Part shown: positions 20,491 to 54,120 of the stretch, one piece after another
How the letters are laid out: each line of letters starts with the position of its first letter
Numbering within the stretch: position 1 is the first letter of the stretch
NCBI RefSeq assembly: GCF_000003815.2
Contig: NC_049992.1
Coordinates: 8,368,920-8,432,919, forward strand
Length of the DNA stretch: 64,000 bases
Reading direction: 5' to 3'
Source of the DNA: Branchiostoma floridae
Taxonomy: Eukaryota > Chordata > Leptocardii > Amphioxiformes > Branchiostomatidae
Translations under genes and position numbers: made by a program
Notes under the pieces: generated by a model
Told to the model about the DNA's origin: nothing
The model's database searches: none
The model's input: only the letters and a program-made list of their open reading frames with translations

Positions 20491-20518
20491 TGATGTCATC
20501 CTATAGCGGCTATATAAA
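20491..20518 (+). promoter_or_regulatory. TATA box with upstream CRE/AP-1-like site, astacin gene promoter
   Basis: TATATAAA at 20511-20518, with TGATGTCA at 20491-20498, a CREB/ATF-like site. Both precede a candidate first exon by the expected 25-30 bases. Confidence 0.6.
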
Positions 20519-20540
20519 TCAGACCGGCGACTCGAGTCTT

Positions 20541-20707
20541 CAAACAACTTGAGGAACGGGACTAAAGAACGTCAGCATAATAGCTACACAAGATTTCTTT
20601 ACTACCGTCGACTTTTCACCTCGAGAGATAGAGAAGTTTAAGATCTGGGACTGCAACAACAAGTGTCTCCACCTGATTTATTTAGCCATTCTACAAACAG
20701 GGATAAG
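20541..20707 (+). other. Probable non-coding first exon (5' UTR) of the astacin gene
   Basis: The interval begins about 30 bases after the TATA box and ends at a good donor, ATAAG|gtgaga. It has no long open frame. The next plus-strand exon is the signal-peptide exon, whose acceptor is probably the CAG before 23769. The exact transcription start is inferred. Confidence 0.5.
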
Positions 20708-23700
20708 GTGAGAAACAAATGCTTTTCTTTCTTTCTTTGTTCACATAGAAAAATGTAAAAACTAATAGTAAGAATACAGGAGTTGTAACAAAATTTCCCC
20801 GCTGTGCCCCTAGGGCTTTGTGTGCGAAAACTTAAAAGCCGCTATAGCTGCAGGACGCTGGCGTGGCGACAAAGTTTGTGGCATTTTTCTGAGGTGTTGT
20901 CACATCAATCTGTTTGGCATTATCTTGGAGCCAGCATGGTGTAACTGTGCTATCTCAGATCAGCATACATTGGTATAACCAGGGGGCAGGTGCCATAGCC
21001 TGCAACAATACTGTTTGGCAGGCGTCTGGGGTGTAGTTACTAGTATGTTATAATTACCGATCATCTTGTATGGGAAAAGCGCGACAGTTTTATTGGTCAG
21101 GGGTTTGCGCCACTTAAACTTAGTAGAACTTTCTTTGCACGGTGAAAGTTGCTGACGAGAACTTATCACTAGGTTGTTACCTTAAGTTTTCCGCACATAA
21201 TGTCGCCGACTGTACTTGTATATGGGCTATAGTCACGTGTCCGGATATAGAAATTAAAGGATATAGGTGTACCCTTTCTTGGAACGACCCTTAAGAGAAC
21301 GTGAAGACAACAACACAGCGGGACGGTGTCTTAGAAACCTGCCAACAAAATCTTAATCCTGCTAGGTGACCACAGCTTTGATAAGTTGGAATTTTCTGCT
21401 GACGTTGCCAGGTTTTTGGCGCCCCTGCTTAAGTTAAATTAGGTAAAAGATCGACACCCACCCCCGTGTCGTATCTTCCGTCAAAACAGGATGACCTTAA
21501 TGCCGATTATACAATTACTTCGTACCTGGCGGAAACTCTCGAAGAACCGTCGCATTTACGCACATCCGGTCGGCATTCCGGCGGCCGTCGGGGAAATCTC
21601 ACCTGATTATTACAGGTCAAGTACCCCAACCTAGCTACTAGACAGTTGTAGAGACTGTTTCATAACTTTAGACAGGTAAAATCTAGGCCAAACTACAGTG
21701 TGTCAAATATATGATCGCAATTTTGAGCAATCTATTATTTACATGAAATGCCTTAATTTTAAGCAGAAATACCACGCTATCTTTTGAGGTCGACGTGAAT
21801 AAACACTATAGAAGACTCGCCAAACACCTCTGGCCAAACAAACAGATTGTTAATCCGTCAAACTTTGTGGCATTGTTCTGTCCTACCGTGACGTCACTCG
21901 CACAAGCCCCGCCCCCTCTCTGCGATTGGTCCTAAGTGTGTATGATCGTGGTTTTGAAGATTTTAAACACTGTTGGATCCCTTCACAAGTATTTATAATT
22001 GACATACTATACTTTTTTTCATTTTTGTATTGAATGTGCATTCAATGTGCACGTGTGAATTACATCTGCAGCCAAATTGGGCATAGACAGTTAAAATTAG
22101 AACAACATTTTGATTTTATTGTTTAGATAATATCAATAAAAGGTATAGATAATATTGATGAAAAGTCGTTGATATTGTAGTATCTTGATATGTCAGATTA
22201 CTAGAAGTATTCAAAACAGGCTAAGGAAAAAATAAGGAGGGACAGCATAACACTTGAACATTGTACTCAAGAGATGATCTTTGAGCTTAGGTATAAAGAA
22301 GCAAACAGACGACACTGTCAGTCATATGGTCTGGTCACAAACCTCAACTGCTCTGCGCACAGTTGTTCAAAACGACTTCCTGAGTGAGTGGGGTGGACTA
22401 TAGGACTACAGGGGTAAGCATGCAGTCTTTCGACATCCATTTAGGACGTACTTATCTTAGGAGATGTTTACGACAGCAGACGATAGAGAGTATTCTGTGG
22501 ACAGTTGTAGCTGTGTCGTACAGGATTTAGATCTCTTGGTGTCGGGAACGGTTCTTATAGATCCTACTCTGGTCGACTAGACTGTTGAATCGATGAAAAC
22601 CTTCCGTGGCAAAAGAACGTACGGTGAAGTTGACCGTGTCTTTCAGTCCGATACTTAGATAGTACTGTGTACTTTGTAAAGATTTTTCATGCTTTGCACA
22701 ACATTTGCAAGTGTTAGCCAGTCTGGTGTTAGCGTGGTTGGGTCAATACACACTGAGCAAAGTCTAACTTCTATACGAGTATGTTATCAATTGATAGCAT
22801 TGTCCTCATATGGAGGTCATGATTTCTCAATTTAATCTCTTTGGGGCTTGAAAACCCCGCCGTGAAGATGTTAATAATATGTCGGGGTACTTTTTGGCTT
22901 TTAAGAAAGATAATGCACTTATGGAAATGTTGTTTGACACAATAGAGAAGGGGTTCCAAAATGACGCACTGAAATGAATGTCCAACTCAATCTCATGCTG
23001 TTGTTACCTCCGAGAAACGAAAGTTTTGTAGTCGCTTGGTACATATGTATGCAGGGCTCGAAATACTGGGTGCATGTGCACCCAGGTGCACCCATAATTG
23101 GAGCTGTGCACCCAATTATTTTTTTGGGTTTATGTAGGTAAAGATATCAAAGTATACTAGCATTCATCATATTCTTGAAATCTAAGTGTTAGAAAGATAA
23201 TGAAAATGTCTGTCATTGTACTTGTTTAAGAATTTGATAGCATGTAAGTACTATGTTTTGTTATTAGGTTTTTCTGACATTCTACTTGAATTCAAGTGGT
23301 GCACCCAATTTTTTAAGCTAAATGCACCAGTGCACCTAGTCCCAAAAATGAATTTCGAGCCCTGGTATGTGAAGGTCGTTTACTAGTATGTCCACACTTC
23401 CGGTATTGACATTTGAATGTTAGTCACCTTCACACTAACATAAAGATTGAGTCAAAGTTGGTCAAACTTCAGTCATAAATGAGTCATGACAGAGATTTTA
23501 CAGAAGAGGCTACTTATTCATGTGGAGGTATTGTTTAAAGTCTGCATATTTATCTAATGCTGTTGGCTTGATACAGATCATTTGGGTTAAGAGAGATGTC
23601 GCTAGTCATACATTACATTTTACATTTTCATATTATGGTTGGTCGACACTTGTTATATATTACATGTTATCTCGTATATCTAACAGTAGAATAAATGAAG

Positions 23701-23781: not shown

Positions 23782-23911
23782 ATGGAACTGATGAAGGTTC
23801 TACAGGTGGTTGTCATGGTGATGGCGGCCTGCCTGACCTGTCATGCGCAGAACGACCCGAACAATGACAACATGGGCGCCTTTGAACGGATCCTCGCTGT
23901 CTTCCAAGGAG
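23782..23911 (+). CDS. Astacin gene: signal-peptide exon
   Basis: Opens with [18 protein letters not shown]; the hydrophobic run and small residues before QNDPNND fit a cleavable signal peptide. G at -3 and G at +4 support the first ATG; a second Met at codon 4 is possible. Ends in phase 1 with donor gtatgt. Confidence 0.85.
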
Positions 23912-26900
23912 GTATGTCATGTTTTGTCTTGTACAAATAAACATTCAAACAGTGGGAATTAACTGATGTGTTATATACATAGATATGGATTGCTTATACT
24001 GAATTAATGGTACAATCATGCGTTTTGTCATTATTGTCTTCGAGCTGAAATTCGCCTGCCCTACGTTGCATTAAACGGATTTGCCTATTCTAATTTATAA
24101 CATTATATTCATTGCTTATCATAAATATGTTCTGACCAAGCCATCTATTCAGAGCGACTAGCAATTGCCATTAGTACAGAGCAACATATTAACATTCAAA
24201 CATTCCATTCCATTCCCTTTTTATCNNNNNNNNNNNNNNNNNNNNNNNNNNNNNNNNNNNNNNNNNNNNNNNNNNNNNNNNNNNNNNNNNNNNNNNNNNN
24301 NNNNNNNNNNNNNNNNNNNNNNNNNGCGATCCGGGCACAGATCAGGAACAGGGAGCTGGGCGACGAGGTCGCCGCCGCCGCCTCAGCACTGGAGACACAC
24401 CGCTGGCCCAAGGGCATCATTCCCTACACCATCGACTGCAGTCTGCGTAAGTTTGATTGAACACAAAAAGTGCCAAGTCCCTTTAAGCACTAGTTGATTT
24501 TTCAAATCTATAACGTAGATATTGTCTTGGTCTATCCTATCACTTGCCAAGTCACAAGTGTCGATAAAAACTGGATAGGTGTGTTACGCCGAAGGGCGGT
24601 TAAACCGGCTATATAGGTACTATAGTAGTAGACTTGCGCAGTGTTTAAGGACAATGTGTAGATACACATACAGAAAACGCCATTAACTTTTACGTTGATG
24701 AAGGTTAGACATCCATGTAATAAGACTGCAGTCTGCGTAAGTTAACCAAAAGGCAGTTACTCAATTATATCAAACGACTGGTAATGATTTTGGAAACGGT
24801 CAGATGTTTCAGACAACGTCCGATGTCTTTCGTCAGTGACACTGGACTGGAGAGATCTTGTTGGAGAGACGTTTTTATATTCTAAAAAAAGTGCCGTGTT
24901 CCATTAAGCACTAGTTTATTTTTCAAATCCTACCAGTTCAGTTGCCAAGTCACAAGAATTGATTAAAACTTTATTCAGTTTTACGTCAATGAAGGTTAGA
25001 CAACCAGGTAATAAGATACGCCAAAAAGCAGTTACTCAAACAACTGGATTTTTTGGAATCATTTCAATTGAATCTTGCAAGTTTGTAGTTAACGTTACCT
25101 TTCATCGGTCGCCACCGTCTGTTGGTATATGACCACGTTAAGACATTTTATAACTGAGTTTCCTTTTCCATTTATCCAGAGGCCCTGCCCGACGCGCTGG
25201 TCGCTATCCGGGCTGCCATAAGAGAGTGGGAGGCCAAGACGTGTTTGCGGTTCGTCCAGAGGACCTCGGAAGTAGACTACGTCGAGTTCTACAGAGGACG
25301 ATAGTGAGATATTTTGTCTTCTTAACTTAGCTTTCATTTTTGTGTGTGTTTAAGTGCGCTGGCACGCGTGTGTTTGTGTGTGTGTGTGTGTTTGTGTGTG
25401 TGTGTGCAGGGCTGGGTGTGGGTTTGTGTAAGTGTGTGCGTCTGTGCGCGCATGTCTCTCTCTCTCTCTCTCTGTGTGTGTCCGTGTGTGTATTTTTCTG
25501 TGTGTGAGGGCTGAATGTGTTCTTGTATGAGTGTGTGTGTTTATGTATGTTTGTCTGTTTGACGTGTATGTGTATGCATGTTTATCTTATGGGCTGGGTC
25601 TGTACTTGTGTGTCTGTGTCTGTCTGTCTGTGTGTGTATATGTATCTTTGTGAGTGCGTAACATATAACCCAACTATTTTCCCAGCGTTGGTTAGATGAA
25701 GGTTAGTTTCTTCATAATCCCTGATCTCGTTTCAGTTGCCAAGCCCAGGTTGGCCGTATCGGCGGTAAGCAGTATGTGTCGGTAGGGTACGGCTATGAGT
25801 TCACACACCTCTGTGTGTGCATGTGTGTCAGTGTGTGTCATGAGTGTTTCGGTGATATTATAATACCGCTGATCTTGTTTCAGTTGTCAAGCCCAGGTTG
25901 GCCGTATCGGCGGTAAGCAGTATGTGTCGGTCGGGTACGGCTGTGAGTACACACACGTGAACGTGCACGAGATCGGACACGCCATCGGCTTCTGGCACGA
26001 GCAGTCCCGACCGGACAGGGACGACTACATCGAGGTCCTGTGGGCTAACGTCGATCCTGGTATCTTGATTTTTTCATTATTATTTCTTGTTTGCCACAGG
26101 TTCAATGGCCCATGCACACATCTAAAAATGTTACCGACAATATCTACATCATAGTACAGGTATATACAATAACTACTTACGAGCAGCGATATGAAGCGGC
26201 CTTTCACGGTTTGCGTACAAGATGACGATATCGAGGCCAAAATAAAATTAGAGATACCATATTCCTAGCATAATGACTAGCACCAGTAATAACTAAAGAG
26301 GTGCATTGAAACATACACAACTACAACAAGAGTTCTGAGACCGCATACCTCCAAATACTATACAGATGACTTGCACATTTCCATGATATGTGCACGATAT
26401 GTGCTTTACATAAAATAGCGTAAAGTAAATTGTCAAGTACATTTGGATATACTCACAAAACAAAGCTTGATTAAACCCTGTCCGTTCCCTACTGATTTTG
26501 TTTACAACGTCTGACACATTCTCCAGCCCTGAGGGAGCAGTTTGAGAAGTACGACAAGGAAGACGTGAACGATTTCGGCGAGGAGTACGACTACGCCTCC
26601 ATCATGCACTACCCCTTCAACGCCTTCTCTTCCAACGGCCGGAACACCATCCGAGCGCTCCGACCGGTGGAGAACCAGCCCTACATAGAACTCAGCGAGT
26701 CTGACGCCAGACAGGTCCAGCTCATGTACGACTACTGTAACGGTAAGGGACTCGTGTGTGGCTTGCTTAAGGTGTTTGTATGAACCGTGAAAGGAATTTT
26801 TGTGTCAGGAAGCTCATCTGTTCAGATGTTTTTTTCTGAGATTTTAAAGTTTGGATGGTCGACAATAAAAAAAAATCACCTAAAAATGCTTCACTGTACT

Positions 26901-29900
26901 CCCGGTCGTCATCAGATAATTGACCTTGGTATGAGGTGCCCTAAAGTCGATACCGCCAAACGTTAAAGGTTCAGAGAGCTTTTATAGATTCTACATTTTG
27001 TACAGGATTTCACAAGGCTTCTGCTTTTATTGTACATCCAATTTTTCTTGTTTCAGACCGCGATGATGATGATCTGCCCGAGCCTGAGAACAGAGGTGAG
27101 TAACAGAACTTTTTGAAATATCTGAAAATGCACTAAAAAAAAACCTTTGGTGACAAAGAAATTACAAAACCCTTCGGTGACAAAGAAATTGCAACTCACC
27201 AGTCTAGATGATTTATATTCATCAATCAATCAATTGATCTACTTGGCATTTAAGATTTAAAAATTAGTCGTTATCTACATGTACAATTGGACCAAAGTAC
27301 ACGTACGAAATCGACACTTCCACTTAACTTGCAATTCTTTTTTCATTTCGCAATGATTGTTAGTGGCGTCCTTAACCCACAGGGAGTTGTAGAACTAGAA
27401 GGGTCTTGAAATCGAAAGTGCCATCTTCTGAGAGACGTTTGAAAAGTTAATTGATAATCTGGCCCAATTTAGGCAGCGCTGCTTTCAAATCATCCCCAAG
27501 TGTCGGAATAATCCAATGGGTTGTGCAACATAGTCCATTTTGTTCTTCATCAGGGAAACTCACCATAACTTGTAAATGTAATGAGAAAAAGTTTCAGCAT
27601 AGATTGCCAATTGATGTTAACCCGCCTTGATTGGTCTGAAGTTTCCATGGTAACATGATTTGTCCCCGCCCCAGCCTGTGACGACCTGCACGCCCAATGT
27701 CCCACCTGGGCGGAAGCTGGAGAGTGCGAGAACAACAAGAACTGGATGCTGTACAACTGCAAGACTAGCTGCGAGACATGCGGTAAGTTAACGCATTGAA
27801 CCGTATCTATATCTGTTAGTGATTTCCGTTGTCCAAAACTTTATTTCCTCAATATGTGAGGGTAGAAGAAGAAGAACGACGTACAATGTATGGCAATCTG
27901 TATATACATAGGAATTGAATTATGTACTATTGCTAGAATCTAATCAATCTAAGATAACCCAATTTAATCTAATCTAACGGTAGAAACAATCTAGTTAATG
28001 TTATACAATACTTCCGAATGGTAAGTCAATATAGCAATGTCTCGTTTTTGCAAGTTGTACATATATATGAATTGATCTAGATAACGCTATATGCGTCAAA
28101 TTCGAAAATTAGATAATGATACTCAACACAACATACTGTCAGACAGATATTCGCAAATTAGATAATTGTCTAACAGTCAATTGTATCTTTATTTGATCAC
28201 AAACCCGTTCTTATTGTCTTTTTTCACAGACGGCCCCTGCCTGGACACCAACGTGAAGTGCCCTCAGTGGGCGCTAGAGGGCGAGTGTGAGGAGAACGCG
28301 GAGTGGATGTTGCTGAACTGTAGACTCAGCTGCGAGAGCTGCAACTACGACAACGTTCTCGCTGAATGTAAGAAACCTGACGTATTTTCAAAAAGAAGTT
28401 ATTTTCAAAAAAGTGAAATCGCAAATATATTTTCAGAAATGTCTTTCAGAAAATATCTTTCAGAAAATATCTTTCAGAAAATATCTTTTATGAAAATATC
28501 TTATAAAGTATCTAACGATAAAGTATCTACACACCAAAGTATCTAATGATAAAGTATCTAAACCCCAGAGGACGTCGACACACCATGGCCCTTATTGGTC
28601 AATTTTGTTTAATATTGAGACGTAAGACGTGAATTTTCCGTCATGATCATGTAGTTTTTCTATCTACTTATTCATCTTCAGAAACGACTGGGTGGTCCTC
28701 TCAGTCAGGCACAGACTGGTTTCTAAAGGATTCTAGCGTACAAAATAAATAGCATAAAGTAAAGAAATACTCAGAACTTGTCATTGCGAACCCTAACTAT
28801 GAGACATGTTGCTCTGTCCCACAGTATCTGCCCTGACCATGCCAGTGGAGGCCATGCCGCCGCCCGCGGATGGAGAAATGACCGGGGAAGAACTGGCTGG
28901 CCTGCGCAAGGGACCGCTCGGCAACAATAAGAAGTGTAAGCTATTGTAGTTACTACCTCCGTTAGAAACACGTAGATGTTGTTTTCGGTGTGTTTATCTA
29001 TTGGTCTAAGCATGTGACAGTTTTGGTCTGTGTCCGCATTACAGTGTGATAGGCTGTAAGTGGGAATGTTGTAATGACATACTTGGAGAACTGGAAGTCT
29101 GATTGTAGTTTGGTCTCTCTCACACCAAAGAGCATTCCTATAGGGTATCAAGTAGTTTTCTAGAAGACAGCATGAAATGAAACATTGTAAGGGATGATTT
29201 CAATAGTCTCTAGACAGATTTATCAGAGGCATAAAATAGTATCAACGATGGCTAAGGAGTGTAGCTGGCCAAAGGGAGTCATCAGCCACTGGGTAGCCAA
29301 ACACACTCCTTGCTAGGCCGGCTTCACTCTGGCAGCTTTTGATACTGTCTTATGCTACCGTAGGATCTGCTTGGAGATTAGATGTTTAAGTCGCGCGTTT
29401 AAACCGTTGTCTGAAGCGCTCTAAAAGTCCTACAACTGTTTTACAACCCCCTCCACAGGGCTCCGGTCCTACCGTGTGGTGAACAACGCCTGCATCCGGG
29501 GCCATAACCAGCTGGGAACCCACCGCGACACCACCCTCAGGCACTGCGTCAAGCGCTGTGACGATGACGACAGGTAAGCTAATATAAATATCACGCTTTT
29601 ACATGATTAGTTGTCATGGCAACGTGAACATTGCTGACGAAAGCTGGGGAATAGGGTTGTCATTGCATGCAATGGTATAAAATTGTGGGCCATTGAGCTG
29701 TATTCAAGTACAAAGTCAAAGTCAAATTTCGGCTGTAGCCATCGTCAGTGTCAAATGACCAATCGCCGAATTCTGTGATCTTTAGAACACGCGGCATCAG
29801 CTGCTGATAGTTGAGCATGCAACAATGCTAACCACCAACACAGATCAACGTCCAAGTTAGAAATATAAATTTAAAATATCCTTGCCTGTTTTAATTAAGA

Positions 29901-32900
29901 CAGGCAAACACGAATAGATATATTTATTGAAAAATGGGTCTTATTTTATTCTTTTTTTTTCTGACAGATGTAAGTCGTTTGACCACGTGCCCAGCGAGCG
30001 CCACTGTTCCCTGTCCTTTGACACACGTGACACTGCGCCTGACGCCTTCAAGGCCTGCGACCCCGCCTGGAAGAGAATCACTACCTACTACGAGAAGAAA
30101 CCAACAGAGCCAGAACAGGAATCGTCAGAAGAGGAGGACGAAGATACCTTTGCATCCGGTATGTATCGCAGACTCGTATATGTATAAATTGTCCAAAAAC
30201 AATCGAAATTAGCGACGTTGGCAGCCTGATTTGGTCCCTTGCAGAAGGACGTTTCTGTCAGAAGTTCCGCTAAGGCTAAAAAAATAAGCTGGTGTTATGC
30301 ATACTATCAAGGAAGCAGAATGTATGATGGGTATTTCCGTTCTTTCAACTGTCTCTGTCTTGTAGCTTGGTGTCTACGACTCTTCCTATCTATCATCTTC
30401 TCTACAGTATTGTTCTACTGTCTGCATTGTGTGTGGGCCAAAGGTTTGACATATACAGTTAGACTGCGTTAGAGCTTGACGAATGAAAAGCAACCGTATG
30501 TGCTGTTAACCTTTTGCTAATCAGACGCGTGGTGGCAAAAGCGATAGAAATATTTGACTAATCAGAGACGTAATAACAAAGTATTGGAAACATATGACCA
30601 AACAGAGACGTATTGACGAAAGCGCTGGAAATCGGTGACCAATCAGGGATGGTCGTAACAAATCCACCTGAAAGCTGTAGCCAATCAGAGTGAAAAAACA
30701 ATTCCAGAACGGATGTTGAGATATACCATGAAACAGTGGTGAAGCGCACTCCAAAATAGAATGAAAATTAATATAGTGCACCATAATAACAATGTCGTGA
30801 TATATAGTTTTTTTCGGTCGTCTGAATTTTTTTTCTTCTTTTTTCTATCTTGTAGTTATGGACGGGTTCTATGTCATCACGAACACCTGTCTTAAAGGCC
30901 GGTCCCAACTGGCCATGGGGAATTTCTATGAAGTGAGCGTCGAGCAGTGCGCTGAGAAATGTGCGGAAGCAGAAAGGTAGGAAACAAAGAAAACAACACA
31001 AGTGTGATCGAGTAGGTTGGCCTGGGTCTCGGTGTCAAGCCAAATTTCTGCCCCAGCCAAATATTTGCCCAGCTCTGCTTGGGGGTTAAGTATTCCTGAG
31101 GGAGAGAAGTACGTGTCGTTCAAGCATATCAGTGTAGTTTTGGAGAAAGGGTCACACTGGGAAGGCTAACCCTAACACTAACCCAACCCTAATCTTATCA
31201 TATGGCCCTAACCCAAACCCTGACTCAACGCATGCGCACAACCACCTTAGCAATAATCCGACGTAGCAAAAACTTGACTACACAACGGAAGGGGGATTGT
31301 ATGAAAATGAGATCTCGAGAATAGTCTAGAACGAAAGATCTTTCAAAACAAGATTGTAGTAAAGCTTACCCTACAAAATACCTCTACATTTAGTATTGAG
31401 AAAAGACAAACCTTCTATATAATTGTTCCTAATACAAATGCAAACCTTGATATTACCACGCGACAGAGTTTCACCGAATCTTGTCCGCCCATGTCCGCTT
31501 TAGATACCGCTTCTTTAACTACGTGACGATAGATCTGTAAAATTTTCGCAAAGCTTACCCAATATATTATCTGTAATTTTGATAATGAGAAAAGACAAAA
31601 TGTTAACCGCGCGAAATAACCAGATCAAGAGTTTCACCGACCGAATCTTGTCGGACCATGTCTGCTGTAGATGCCGCTCCTTCAACTACGTGGCGACCTA
31701 CCGTTCGTGCCACCTGTCCATGGATACCCGCGCTACGGCTGTGGACGAGTGTCTGGAAGAGTACAGCGTCATCTCCGACTTCTACGAGAAGAAACCTGAA
31801 GGCACGTGATGGCAGTCTCTATTCTTGATCTGAAATTTATTTGCTTATACTTGGATGCCAAGTATTCATTCGCGCATGCGAGATACAAGTTTGCGACACT
31901 GATACTTAGAAATGTCTTTTTGATGGAGGCGATGAATGAATCAAATTACAATATGACGATGACAAATATCGTGATCAACAACGTATTTTACCCTCTCTTT
32001 TTTACTTTTTCCTCTATCTGCATGTTCTTTCTTCTCCCGTCAAACACATGAACTTGACTTATCAGACACAGATTCACTGTTCCTATTCTATAACATGTTC
32101 TCCACAACTTAGTATGTTCAAGCAGAGTCCTTTCCAAATTCCAAAATACGCCTTTTATCAAAGTGATCCATCGTGACTTTGCCCTTTGCGCTGCCAGTCA
32201 AATGTATCATGACTTTTCATAGTATATTCTATGGCTTATTTGATAATTTATTTAAAGCACTTAAACTTTATCAGTTTGATCTATTTTTACCCCACAGTTG
32301 AGTTCCTGTTGATCGAGGAAGCATGTATCCTGGGTAAGAATCAGCTGGGTTCGTTTTACGGCCAAACCGTAGAGGAATGTCAACTGCGGTGCGGACAGAA
32401 CGAAAGGTGAGATATCTGCAACGCACTATGTAAAAAATATGTACTTATATTGTTGTTAATAAGTATCCTGTCCTTGTCAAATTCCATTTGTATTGTCTCT
32501 GTTTTTTGTCGGCAGGGCTAGCCCTTTGTAATAGCCACAGTATATTCGGCCAGCACTGGCTGTGCATGCTGAACAGCCAAACCAAGAAATAACTAAAGGT
32601 AGATAAATGAAGAAAAACTCTGCAAGGCGTTATATTTACTAATCTTGACTGTGTGATCTGCAAAATTAAAAGAAAAACAACGATGAAATGGCACTGAAAA
32701 TTTTTTTCTTTCCGCTAGGTGTCTCTCCTTTGACTACGTGAGCTCGTACCGTTCCTGTCACCTGTCTACGGACAACAGGCACACTGCCCGGGCGGCGTTC
32801 GAGAGCTGTCCGGCGTGGTTCAGCCCGCAGTCAGATTACTACGAGCGCATTGTGGACGGTGGGTTACATTATTCCTTTCTTTTAAACAACTTTTAAACAA

Positions 32901-35900
32901 AAACGAGTTGTGTAAGACCAGACAGGATGGTTAGTTTACCTTTTTGACGAATTGACAAGAAGATGCACATTATAAATAAAGGCCATCGTATTACATGTAA
33001 CCAAGGAGCTCTCAAAAGCTCCTTGATGTAACTGATTCATACTTGAGTCTGCATCTAATGCCTTTGTAAACAAGCCACGCGTATTAGATTTTGCACCACT
33101 CTTTGTAGAATGAGAAACAAGCCTCTGTACCTGTCTGGTTTATAATGACAGTATCATGTGAGGCATCAAAGTCAGGCTCATAGTGTCTGAAGTGATATGA
33201 CTCATTAAGACAATTCCAATGGAGCAATTCTTATTACTAGATTGACTAACGTTTTAAATCCTCTTTTCAGGAACTGACCCAGTCATCACTGAAGCCCCCC
33301 TCCCACCGACTACTACAGTTCCTCAAACAACGACGACGACCACGACAGAAGCACCGACAACAACGACCACCACTCGGCGCCCTACCGAGGCCCCCACCAC
33401 TGGTCCTCCCGGCACCAAGCCTCCACCCAGGCCCACACTGGCACCAGGTTCGTTACTGGAACATTAAAACCTGCAGTTTATTTCAATCTTTACACAAAGT
33501 TTGGAAATAGTTGAAATTCTATCTACAGTAAGGGCCATGTTTACTTTTGCCGTAAATTAGTCCTTTTGCCAAGTTTAAAGTCTTACCACATGATTGAAAT
33601 AGACTCTCTGAAGTCAAACGCTTGACATTGCACCTCCATCATAATCAACGCAAGGTTTTTTTATTTGCTTCCGGATGTGGCACTGCACTCAAGTTTAGCA
33701 ACTTATCTGAACAGCGCCACAAAATATAGCGAGGAGGTAAAGGTAGTCTGGTATCCAGTTCTACACCTGGGTGAAGTGAGGAAGGTCGTGTAAATTGTCT
33801 TTACTCAATGGTACAACGTCGAGGAATGGCGGGTATCGAACTCTGGACCTCTAGAATCTGAGCCAAACACTCTACCCGCTACGCCACAAATGTACACGAC
33901 GCGACTAAGTTTATCTGATTGGTGTACCCAGGTTCCTGCTCAACTCCGCTCGGCCTTGGAAAGGAGAGCGGCTACTCCCTGCCTGACGAACAGCTCTCCG
34001 CCTCCTCCAGTCTGGACTACGGCACCTGGGACGTAGGAGCGAAGAACGCCAGACTTAACTTCGAGGACGACTATCAGAGGTATGATACCCTCTCTGTCGG
34101 TGTCGAAAGTACATTGGGACACTGGTCTTATAGGTGTTTAATTCAGCACCAGGGACAGGGGCACCAGTTTAGCGACGCCAGTTTTGTCCATGTTAGCTAA
34201 TAGACTGAATAAAGTATCAAAGTGTCATTCAGCACCAGAGACAGGGGTACCAGTATTGTTGGGTATAATTCAGCACCAGGGACAGGGGTACCAGTACTGT
34301 TGGTTATTATTCAGCACCAGGGACAGGGGCACCAGTGGTGTTAATTAGCGCGAAGGGTACAAGACGGACAGTATAGTTGGTGTGTCATTCAGCACCAAGG
34401 ACAGAGGCACAATCAATTTATTATATTGTTGTTTTGTGCCATTTAGCACCATGGACGACTTACCAATTCTTGTTTTGTGCCATTCAGCAAAAGGGCACCA
34501 GCATTGTTGGTTATCATTCAGCACCAGGGACAGGGGCATCAGTCTTGTCGATATGTGTCATTCAGAACCAGGGACAAAGGCACTTATGGTATCAAACTTT
34601 TTAGTGGGAAAACAATACCAAGGCCAGGAACTGTTTCATTAATCATACATATACATAGTTTCACATACATTTAACTGACTTTGGACGATGTTGTGTTGCT
34701 AGGCAACGCGTGGGTGCGTGGTGCGCGGCCAGCTCAGACGCCGGGGAGTACCTGCAGATAGACTTGGGCCGTACCAAACTGATCACAGGGGTGGCCACAC
34801 AGGGACGAGACAAGTACTTCGAACACGTCAAGTCGTACACACTGACCTACAGCCAGGACGGGAGGATATGGAGAGAGTACAAGGAAGGTGGAAGGACAAA
34901 GGTAAGATGGTATAACTTTTGTTAATTTAATTCCTTCGGCCTCTTGGCCTAGTTGGTTTTTTTGAAAGGTATTTTAAGAAGATGGTGACGTTGTCACTGT
35001 TGTCGTTGTCGTGAGAATAACTTGGTGAAAAGAAGAATTTTGAAGACCATGAGACAAGTGAAGTTTCATATTTGCACCTAGGAATTATCAAAATATTTCT
35101 ACCTTCTAGTAGACCAGTTACCAGTATCTTAACTTAAAAGATTTCTTTCACAATTTGTCTATTAGAACGATTGTGAAAGGGGATTGTTATCCCCATTTTG
35201 TGCAAAATTAGCATCAATGTTCTGTGTGACTCTCTCCATAGGTGTTTGAAGGGAACTGCGATCACGTGACACCGGTAACCAATCAGCTGCCCTCGCCCAT
35301 AACGGCCCAGTACCTGCGCATCGTTGTGGTGGACAGCAACTTCCCGTGCATGCGCGCTGAGCTGTACGGCTGTGACACCGCAGGTCAGTCGGCAAATCTT
35401 CAAACTTACAAAAAATCACTATGAATTGGTACCGTCTTACATTTATTCAATGATTGTATTGTACGTTGTTATGGTTGCTAGCCCCCTTCGCAGACTTATA
35501 TGTATGGGCAGTGGCAGCGCGTGGCGTATATTTTTATTTTCTGGAGCGCTGATTGGAAATTTTGGGTTGTAACAATTTGCAGTACCAAAGACTAAGGTTC
35601 TCTATGCTGGGTGCTGCAAAACACCCTCTAGGGAACCGTAGCCGATATTGAAAATCTCAAATCAGCGCTCACCCAGAAAAGATAAACGCCACCACTACAA
35701 AATCTGCAAAGGAGGCTGGTGTTGTGCATTTGATGTTCAAAAATGTTAAGAAAGATTTGTTGAAAGAAACGTATGTCAATCAATCATTTTCATCTTTGAT
35801 TTAAGATGGTGAGACGCCTTCAGATGGCGACAACCCCGGAGACGGTGACAACCCTGGGGACGGGAACGACCCTGGGGACGGTGAGAACCCTGGAGATGGG

Positions 35901-35951
35901 GGCGATGACTACTATGACTACTATGATGACACTGATCCGGTCATTCCTTAA
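23782..35951 (+). CDS. Secreted astacin metalloprotease with 2 ShKT, 3 PAN, F5/8C and acidic tail
   Basis: Exons: 23782-23911, [gap], 24326-24446, 25180-25303, 25884-26059, 26527-26743, 27057-27095, 27675-27782, 28230-28367, 28825-28935, 29459-29573, 29968-30158, 30856-30976, 31671-31801, 32298-32406, 32719-32858, 33271-33447, 33932-34079, 34703-34901, 35242-35383, 35806-35951. About 927 residues are visible; phases agree throughout outside the gap. The start ATG opens a signal peptide (hydrophobic [17 protein letters not shown]). The astacin domain carries the zinc site [19 protein letters not shown] and the Met-turn SIMHYP, so it should be an active zinc endopeptidase of the extracellular space. 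Downstream domains are typical protein- and carbohydrate-binding modules, suggesting targeting to matrix or glycan. Part of the prodomain is lost in the assembly gap. One intron needs a GC donor (31802). The substrate is unknown. Confidence 0.93.
24226..24325. other. Assembly gap (100 N)
   Basis: Exactly 100 N, the usual placeholder for a gap of unknown size. It removes the upstream part of the prodomain exon: coding sequence ([14 protein letters not shown]) is already open at the right edge. Confidence 0.99.
24724..24743 (+). pseudogene. Duplicated exon end with donor site
   Basis: GACTGCAGTCTGCGTAAGTT repeats the last 13 coding bases and donor of exon 24326-24446. It is part of a larger diverged duplication in the intron: AAGCACTAGTT..TTTTTCAAATC and GCAGTTACTCAA recur near 24485/24906 and 24756/25028. 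Confidence 0.8.
25320..25660. repeat. GT-rich microsatellite with CT run
   Basis: Interrupted (GT)n with a (CT)n block near 25453-25474, in the intron before the duplicated pseudo-exon. Confidence 0.95.
25715..25807 (+). pseudogene. Truncated duplicate of the astacin zinc-site exon
   Basis: An acceptor and the first 24 codons of exon 25884-26059 are repeated 148 bases upstream: CAG at 25735, then a frame reading [20 protein letters not shown]. The copy reads GYGYEFTH where the real exon reads GYGCEYTH, losing a Cys that pairs in the astacin fold. It runs into GT-rich sequence before the HExxH site. The acceptor looks intact. Confidence 0.92.
25884..26059 (+). CDS. Astacin gene: zinc-binding exon
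   Basis: Holds the [16 protein letters not shown] segment and [19 protein letters not shown], whose three His (25966-25968, 25978-25980 and the later HE) and Glu are the zinc ligands and general base in astacins. Confidence 0.95.
26527..26743 (+). CDS. Astacin gene: Met-turn exon
   Basis: Contains [20 protein letters not shown], with the Met-turn and conserved Tyr, then the C-terminal [12 protein letters not shown] that closes the catalytic domain with its last Cys. Confidence 0.95.
27675..28367 (+). CDS. Astacin gene: two ShKT domain exons
   Basis: Exons 27675-27782 and 28230-28367 each encode one six-Cys ShKT module: C-x7-C ..WA..GEC..N..WML.NC..SC..C. ShKT modules following an astacin domain are common in cnidarian and nematode enzymes, where they act as binding or regulatory units. 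A short acidic exon (27057-27095, [13 protein letters not shown]) links to the protease. Confidence 0.9.
28430..28560. repeat. Short tandem repeats in ShKT-downstream intron
   Basis: About four copies of ATCTTTCAGAAAAT, then about four of AAAGTATCTA. Each of the former contains a TTTCAG that resembles an acceptor. Confidence 0.8.
29459..30158 (+). CDS. Astacin gene: PAN/apple-like domain 1
   Basis: Two exons (29459-29573, 29968-30158). The first reads [24 protein letters not shown], the second [19 protein letters not shown] then an acidic EEEDED tail. Cys pattern and C-L-S strand fit the PAN/apple fold. It is linked to the ShKT pair by exon 28825-28935. Confidence 0.82.
30515..30695. repeat. 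Tandem repeat with CCAATCAG-like core
   Basis: About four units of 41 bases, each starting CYAATCAGAGACGT and containing AAAGCGCTGGAAAT variants, in the intron between PAN1 and PAN2. Confidence 0.8.
30856..31801 (+). CDS. Astacin gene: PAN/apple-like domain 2, ends at a GC donor
   Basis: Exons 30856-30976 and 31671-31801. Reads [24 protein letters not shown] then [20 protein letters not shown]. The second exon ends GAAG|gcacgt; only this GC donor restores frame to the next exon, since the nearby gt sites give stops. Confidence 0.85.
31168..31228. repeat. Degenerate telomere-like (CCCTAA) tract
   Basis: Runs such as CTAACCCTAACACTAACCC and CCCTAACCCAAACCCTGA lie in the intron of PAN2. Short and imperfect. 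Confidence 0.7.
31361..31540 (+). pseudogene. Truncated duplicate of the PAN2 second exon
   Basis: The segment from AAAGCTTACCC through GAGTTTCACCGAATCTTGTC, an acceptor (TTTAG at 31503) and the exon start is repeated about 189 bases downstream, where the real exon begins at 31671. The copy would read [12 protein letters not shown] then stop, against [12 protein letters not shown], so a conserved Cys is Tyr here. Confidence 0.9.
32298..32858 (+). CDS. Astacin gene: PAN/apple-like domain 3
   Basis: Exons 32298-32406 and 32719-32858: [25 protein letters not shown] and [20 protein letters not shown]. It has the same intron position and phase (phase 2, before the conserved C-x-SF) as PAN1 and PAN2, showing that the pair of exons was duplicated as a unit. 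Confidence 0.85.
33271..33447 (+). CDS. Astacin gene: Thr/Pro-rich linker
   Basis: A 59-residue spacer of [19 protein letters not shown] type, a likely O-glycosylated stalk between the PAN domains and the discoidin domain. Confidence 0.9.
33676..33893 (-). repeat. tRNA-derived SINE, minus strand
   Basis: On the minus strand, TGGCGTAGCGGG (perfect A-box pattern) is followed about 30 bases later by GAGTTCGATACC (B box), then a body that includes ACCTTCCTCACTTCACCCAG and ends near GTGCCACATCC. No acceptor-stem pairing is visible, so it is a SINE head and not a tRNA gene. Confidence 0.7.
33932..35383 (+). CDS. Astacin gene: F5/8 type C (discoidin) domain
   Basis: Three exons (33932-34079, 34703-34901, 35242-35383) give a complete domain: [20 protein letters not shown] at the start, [46 protein letters not shown], then [11 protein letters not shown] and RAELYGC. 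The first and last Cys form the usual closing disulfide. Such domains bind phospholipid or glycans. Confidence 0.95.
34135..34580. repeat. Minisatellite with ATTCAGCACCAGGGACAGGG core
   Basis: About eight copies, 40-80 bases apart, in an intron of the discoidin domain. Variation includes GTACCAG and GCACCAG tails. The 16-base core AGCACCAGGGACAGGG is shared with 14795-15215. Confidence 0.9.
35480..35717. mobile_element. Foldback MITE in the last astacin intron
   Basis: Left arm AGCCCCCTTCGCAGA..TGGCGTATATTTTTATTTTC and right arm CAGAAAAGATAAACGCCA..TCTGCAAAGGAGGCT pair over about 80 bases with mismatches. No coding capacity. Confidence 0.75.
35806..35951 (+). CDS. Astacin gene: acidic repeat tail and stop
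   Basis: Encodes GDNPGDG-type repeats ([20 protein letters not shown]) then [15 protein letters not shown] and TAA. The tail is strongly acidic with clustered Tyr, a context that resembles tyrosine-sulfation sites; sulfation is an inference. Confidence 0.92.
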
Positions 35952-36312: not shown

Positions 36313-36318
36313 AATAAA
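36313..36318 (+). terminator. Candidate poly(A) signal of the astacin gene
   Basis: AATAAA about 360 bases after the stop codon, in AT-rich sequence. It is the first canonical hexamer I see downstream. Confidence 0.45.
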
Positions 36319-53059: not shown

Positions 53060-54120
53060 ATGGCGAAAGTGTGGCAAGCGTTCTGCCGCACCAAGACCAC
53101 CACCACCCGAGACCTGAAGGACACGGAGTTGTCCCGGTGCCTCGGGGTGTTCGACCTGACGGCCCTCGGGATCGGCAGCACCCTCGGGGCTGGGATATAC
53201 GTGCTGGCTGGGCAGGTAACATAAAACCATAATTTTCGCCACATAAAACCAGAACTTTCGGTACTTTCGACCAATTGCTGACGTCACGTATCCGCACGAT
53301 CACACGTTGATAAGATCACCTGTCTGCAACTCTCGTTCTGAAGTGACTGGTCATCAGTATTAATCCTGAAGAAGGCCACAGTGGTCGTTGAAAATTTGAC
53401 CCGTGTAACGTTATACATTTGTGTTGGAAGAACGTTTAGCATTGTACTGTGATTACTACAAACACAGATGAGATTCCATGAATGAATTCAGATACAATAC
53501 TCATCTTTAACTGTATTTGTACGTGTGGTTGAAATTGCATTTCTATGTTACGCAATGTTGATTTGATTACATACAGGACATCCGAGCGCGCATCGATTTT
53601 ACTCCATTAAAAAGTTTTCGACCATGCTATTAATAGTTACAATCGGCTGTAAAATGAGCACACATATGCCGTAAATTAACAAAGATATCGGAAAATTCAT
53701 ACTAATGTCATAGAATCCCAAGGTAAATTCCAAAGTGAAGAACAAAAATGAAAAATCTATACATGATGTAGTTCGGTATACGTTTAGTCTTTTGTTCAAC
53801 CTTTCTGACCACTTAGATTTAATAATGAAGGCAACTTTTTTGGCCAAACGTTTTATGTATTTGCACGCTCGAATCAGCTTGGGGGTTCCCAAAGGATGCC
53901 CTCCACATAATCAAATCTACATGGCCTTACATCCAGTGCCGTCCTTTGTATTTTCAAAGCACTACAATTAGCATTTGCGGCTGTGAATAAGTCTTTGTTG
54001 TCTTATGAACAAATTGATGACACAGTTCCCATCATCGCCCTCCCCAGGTGGCCAGACTGCAGGCCGGACCAGGCGTGGTGCTGTCATTCCTCATCGCTGC
54101 GCTGGCCTCGCTGCTGTCAG
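53060..54120 (+). CDS. SLC7-type cationic amino acid transporter, first two coding exons
   Basis: Exon 53060-53215 starts [19 protein letters not shown], then [20 protein letters not shown] and AGIYVLAGQ, the first transmembrane segment of CAT proteins with the unwound GxGSTLGAG substrate-binding motif. Exon 54048-54120 joins in phase 0 and reads [20 protein letters not shown], the second segment, ending in phase 1 with gtacag. The N-terminus and motif order match SLC7A1-4 cationic amino acid transporters of the plasma membrane, which carry arginine, lysine and ornithine; which paralogue is unclear. No further exon is visible to the window end, so the next intron exceeds 9.8 kb. The start is supported by context and family length. 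Confidence 0.88.

Follow-up and report, generated by a model that had tools for sequence, protein, structure and literature searches.

The locus raises the question of whether the modules readable between positions 23782 and 35951 belong to one polypeptide or to two neighboring genes. These modules are a zinc protease of the astacin family, two ShKT domains, three PAN domains, a Thr-rich stalk, an F5/8 type C (F5/8C) domain, and an acidic tail. The window, i.e., the whole 64-kb stretch of DNA analyzed, corresponds to C14:8368920-8432919 in the genome searched (513,431,437 bases, 431 contigs). Judging from the sequence, the modules are real as a series and probably belong to one gene.

Exon model and domain composition

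The model comprises 20 coding exons on the forward strand (Table 1), the ends of which were picked by reading and then spliced in a script. The product downstream of the assembly gap, composed of 19 exon pieces, is a single open chain of 883 residues terminated by the stop codon at 35949-35951. The frame is kept at all 18 junctions among E2-E20, an agreement that is partly by construction because the exon ends were selected by reading. With the beginning of exon 2 lost in the 100 N, neither the E1/E2 junction nor the propeptide's switch residue, a zinc-blocking Asp in astacins, is readable. The exon 1 product opens with a stretch of 23 residues containing the initiator Met and finishes with VFQG and one base of the next codon. 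All 18 readable acceptors are AG, and the donors are GT in 18 of 19 cases, the other being GC after exon 13 (31801; AAG/GCACGT). A GT donor a few bases past the end of exon 13 was rejected, as it puts a stop into exon 14. The introns between the modules are in phase 1 (10/10), and those within the PAN repeats are in phase 2 (3/3), a pattern typical of exon shuffling. By motif reading, TATAAA is found at 20513 and a possible 5' untranslated exon at about 20540-20708. An intron inside the F5/8C domain harbors, at 34227-34336, a tandem repeat with a 41-bp unit (2.7 copies).

Table 1. Features of the predicted astacin gene, in positions of the window
Feature	Positions	Strand	Evidence
Exon 1: ATG, hydrophobic N-terminus (likely signal peptide, by reading), propeptide start	23782..23911	+	
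Assembly gap, 100 N, over the 5' part of exon 2 (propeptide)	24226..24325	.	
Exon 2, 3' part: propeptide end and mature protease start	24326..24446	+	Splicing, Pfam
Exon 3: astacin catalytic domain	25180..25303	+	Pfam, PDB match
Exon 4: astacin zinc site (19 residues)	25884..26059	+	Pfam, PDB match
Exon 5: astacin Met-turn SIMHY, catalytic domain end	26527..26742	+	Pfam, PDB match
Exon 6: short acidic linker	27057..27095	+	
Exon 7: ShKT domain 1, six Cys	27675..27782	+	Pfam; C11 counterpart 75-77%
Exon 8: ShKT domain 2, six Cys	28230..28367	+	Pfam; C11 counterpart 71%
Exon 9: Pro/Glu/Gly-rich linker	28825..28935	+	Weakly alignable C11 exon in the same place
Exons 10 (29459-29573) and 11 (29968-30158): PAN domain 1 and acidic Glu/Ser stretch	29459..30158	+	Pfam
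Exons 12 (30856-30976) and 13 (31671-31801): PAN domain 2; GC donor on exon 13 in the model	30856..31801	+	
Exons 14 (32298-32406) and 15 (32719-32858): PAN domain 3	32298..32858	+	C11 counterpart 65-73%
Exon 16: Thr/Pro stalk, 23 Thr and 15 Pro in 58 residues	33271..33447	+	C11 Thr-rich stretch in the same place
Exons 17 (33932-34079), 18 (34703-34901), and 19 (35242-35383): F5/8C (discoidin)	33932..35383	+	C11 counterpart 56-75%
Exon 20: acidic tail, end (15 residues), stop	35806..35951	+	
AATAAA, candidate 3' end	36313..36318	+	Motif alone

The GC content is 58.6% across exons E2-E20 (72% at third codon positions) versus 38.5% across the introns. A codon model was trained on E2-E8 and tested on the 13 other exons (E1 and E9-E20) against 2000 non-coding open stretches. 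Eleven of the 13 lie over the 95% point of the null distribution (-0.05), while E12 (-0.06) and the Thr-rich E16 (-0.18) lie below it; only E10 surpasses the top null value.

Pfam searches of the spliced product give a complete astacin catalytic domain (E 1.1e-53, profile positions 1-187 of 189), two ShK stretches C-terminal to it (E 3.5e-10), three PAN_1 stretches (E 9.3e-22), and a whole F5_F8_type_C domain (E 4.3e-25, profile positions 1-127 of 127). The sequence-only reading had proposed all these modules in this order in one frame. The order is borne out by the four Pfam families, whose matches extend across junctions, and the modules are readable in one frame with the exon ends selected. 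CUB, EGF, MAM, and MATH domains are absent from the product at E ≤ 0.1.

Astacins are defined by the motif HEXXHXXGXXH followed by EXXRXDRD (PMC9848320, excerpts), and the 19-residue stretch of exon 4 conforms to it. The Met-turn SIMHY with the zinc-binding Tyr is intact in an 11-residue stretch of exon 5. The earlier claim of an apparently active zinc site agrees with both motifs. By eye, the core Cys residues of the predicted pairs C42-C198 and C64-C84 are present at all four places, and an additional Cys is found within YTIDC. Six Cys residues are read in each ShKT domain and in each of the three PAN repeats. The closest solved catalytic domains in the PDB are 8a28, TLL1, and BMP1, of which 8a28 is the Limulus astacin (PMC9848320, excerpts). 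The closest solved ShK domain is 2mcr, labelled probable zinc metalloproteinase (5.6e-05), and the PAN match is weak (plasma kallikrein, 0.00068).

The F5/8C domain matches factors V and VIII best in the PDB. Phospholipid-binding F5/8C domains have long hydrophobic loop spikes. Factors V and VIII carry extra residues in two loop regions relative to the F5/8C domain of the window in the PDB alignments, so that these alignments give no indication of lipid binding by the latter. The Thr/Pro stalk is possibly O-glycosylated. The last exon encodes 14 Asp residues and a YYDYY cluster, which we take to be a possible tyrosine-sulphation site. No hydrophobic anchor or transmembrane segment is found at the C-terminus by reading.

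A second locus with the same order of modules

A profile search of the genome for astacin gives 80 exon matches on 14 contigs. Among them are astacin exons on contig C11 (22813162-22814878, reverse strand; profile matches and the last piece read). On the reverse strand, these exons are followed, in the stretches of C11 that were read (22797000-22806999 and 22809400-22813199), by two ShK domains and a linker exon and then by PAN, a Thr-rich stretch, and F5/8C, which is the order in the window. Identities with the window are 75-77% for the first ShK-like domain and 71% for the second. The number of PAN domains on C11 is at least one (one in the stretches read, 22807000-22809399 being outside them); its pieces show 65% and 73% identity, and PAN 3 is the nearest in the window. 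The F5/8C exons show 66%, 75%, and 56% identity, the 56% piece being incomplete because it ends at the edge of the stretch read. The exon resembling exon 9 aligns weakly and occupies the same position, and the codon position of its GT donor agrees with that in the window. As far as readable by eye, the two loci share the positions and phases of the splits that interrupt PAN and F5/8C or surround the ShK exons.

In the comparison of C11 with the window, pN is smaller than pS in all seven exon pieces (303 codons). The overall dN and dS are 0.25 and 1.16, giving dN/dS of about 0.2, with single dS values up to 2.2, near saturation. At the level of these sequences, the ShK, PAN, and F5/8C exons are under purifying selection. 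This selection and the second, unlinked locus make the chain deserving of a direct RNA test.

Among the matches listed (150 of 1089 candidates scored, by eye), F5/8C within 20 kb downstream of a same-strand astacin is found only in the window gene and at C11:22797387-22797572 (reverse strand). PAN and F5/8C modules like those of the window occur only behind the C11 astacin among the 36 loci examined; none of the 34 other loci has a window-like PAN or F5/8C at E ≤ 0.01, eight of the 34 covering just 3.2-3.6 kb. The set takes in the downstream DNA of some, not all, of the astacin loci matched. A PAN family search of the genome missed the split PAN exons of the window itself, so that this search cannot count such genes.

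Proposed role and the number of messages

We consider it fairly probable, as a whole, that the product of a single lancelet gene is a secreted zymogen held by its tail at an extracellular surface or matrix, and that the chain was built by phase-1 exon shuffling and tandem copying of PAN. In this account, all exons would be joined in one message to yield a secreted astacin zymogen, and the propeptide would be removed after secretion. The ShKT, PAN, and F5/8C domains would attach the enzyme to a surface or matrix outside the cell, such as a cell coat, mucus, or a basement layer, with the Thr/Pro stalk as a spacer between the F5/8C anchor and the rest. Docking would restrict cleavage to proteins held at the docking site. 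It is proposed because of what PAN and F5/8C domains do in known proteins. A secreted, tail-docked zymogen is the most likely form of the product. In BMP1/tolloid enzymes, exosites are borne by the CUB and EGF domains (PMC9848320, excerpts). The chain may have originated by shuffling of phase-1 exons together with tandem copying of the two-exon PAN unit. If true, this would be a clear case of a protease acquiring a long docking tail through phase-1 exon shuffling.

The tail could also bind food particles or microbes instead of the animal's own matrix, in which case the product would be a free digestive or defense protease. We regard this as possible, on the unlikely side. It accords with the C-terminus without a hydrophobic anchor and with the observation that ShKT-astacins are mostly reported from gut and barrier epithelia (PMC9848320, excerpts); however, nothing here distinguishes it from docking on host surfaces.

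A single gene may instead give alternative products. A short protease-ShKT form would end just past exon 9, or by read-through of exon 8, beside the long PAN-F5/8C form, or the chain would end after PAN 2 via a GT near 31806. At both loci, the frame continued beyond the exon 9 donor meets a stop after four to five codons; at C11, this stop past the linker exon has two AATAAA motifs in the roughly 55 bases that come next. The frame of exon 8 stays open into the following intron as far as 28546, intronic AATAAA/ATTAAA motifs occur at 28744, 32665, 32975, and other positions, and a GT competes with the donor of exon 13. Such motifs are, however, frequent by chance, AATAAA and ATTAAA amounting to 77 on the forward strand of the 64-kb window, and we think this alternative unlikely.

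More doubtful still is that two neighboring genes, an astacin-ShKT gene with exon 9 read through to the stop and a PAN-F5/8C gene, were co-duplicated to C11 and are falsely joined here. Neighbors are sometimes joined in lancelet gene models, and novel lancelet domain chains have been argued to be often gene-prediction errors (PMC4967905, excerpts). False joins can look convincing where the introns are in phase 1, and the stops past exon 9 at both loci, with AATAAA next at C11, would suit the end of a first gene, as would the motif at 28744, which lies upstream of exon 9. As for the start of a second gene, the window has two hydrophobic ATG frames, both weak and each with a phase-1 GT, one at 28546 in the intron upstream of exon 9 and the other at 30320 in that upstream of exon 12. 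Hydrophobic ATG frames are plentiful at C11, where the 5.5 kb read ahead of PAN contains several, five of them with a phase-1 GT. In contrast, the window intron between exons 9 and 10 (28936-29458) contains no ATG frame of at least 18 residues with a hydrophobic start by the hydropathy threshold, so that a separate secreted PAN gene would be without an evident start there, and neither AATAAA nor ATTAAA is present in it. The equal codon phase of the exon 9 donor at both loci also argues against two genes, as a terminal exon would not need it, and so does the restriction of such PAN and F5/8C modules to the C11 astacin among the loci examined. The sequence-only reading had named separate genes for the protease-ShKT and PAN-discoidin parts as the case that would overturn it. 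The findings against two genes make this case less likely. The order at the unlinked C11 locus favors one gene without proof, because a duplicated pair of neighbors would give the same order.

It is very improbable that the chain belongs to a cephalochordate subfamily of surface-triggered zymogens, which would unite PAN/apple and F5/8C domains on one zinc protease and act independently, as humoral or barrier enzymes drawn to wounds or microbes.

Relation to known proteins and duplicated exon pieces

The predicted single message shares the order of astacin and then ShKT domains with the ShKT-astacins of nematodes, Hydra, tunicates, and lancelets, for which the PAN trio and F5/8C tail are not described in the portions of the literature consulted. 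ShKT, PAN, and FA58C are already listed among the astacin-linked domains, and ShKT-astacins are named in lancelet (PMC9848320, excerpts), so that the novelty is limited to a new combination of modules. Every module is known, and the combination is probably new within a known enzyme family. No description of an astacin, a ShKT pair, three PAN domains, and F5/8C in one chain was found in the titles, abstract starts, and passages of the astacin literature covered. The portions available of PMC11788884 and PMC11175523 contain nothing about such a chain, and PMC6071037 contains none of the terms sought.

In the BMP1/tolloid enzymes and the meprins, too, an astacin is put in its place by additional modules. 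BMP1/tolloid enzymes have CUB and EGF domains and meprin has MAM, MATH, and a transmembrane segment, whereas the predicted product has none of these four domains at the threshold given above and no hydrophobic C-terminus. Cnidarian Polydom has PAN adjoining FA58C in one secreted chain; unlike in the window gene, neither astacin nor ShKT is mentioned for it in the excerpts of the source (PMC12549020). Plasma kallikrein and factors V and VIII share PAN/apple repeats and F5/8C, respectively, as docking modules, and these are a serine protease or cofactors in contrast to the zinc protease here. In vertebrate clotting, PAN/apple (kallikrein) and F5/8C (factors V and VIII) sit in separate proteins.

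Three exon-like stretches on the forward strand flank the gene in the window, all without a Pfam match above the cut-off. That at 801-908 weakly matches an oxidoreductase family (GFO_IDH_MocA), with an E of 0.033 that misses the cut-off, and those at 53078-53215 and 54036-54116 resemble an amino acid transporter when read.

A partial copy of the intron end and the 5' half of exon 4 lies at 25721-25808, 148 bp upstream of the original (25869-25956), with 94% identity over 88 bp. It was rejected as a real exon and resembles the lancelet duplications called "mirage", in which intron-exon boundaries are copied and which have been reported for B. floridae (PMC3087553, excerpts). Such duplications seem to occur in this window. 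Repeats of protease-exon pieces, mostly with 130-175 bp spacing, are also observed at the astacin loci L015 (8780-9619), L016 (2178-2818), L002 (2256-3062), and L036 (3-544, reverse strand). At L015, the repeated piece is part of the zinc-site exon; the unit of 138 bp is present in 5.6 copies, and the frame is kept through several of them. In an array of astacin genes at C4:18.55-18.61 Mb (L009, L010, L011, L018, L019, and L020), ShK exons that may either end the preceding gene or begin the next lie upstream of protease exons.
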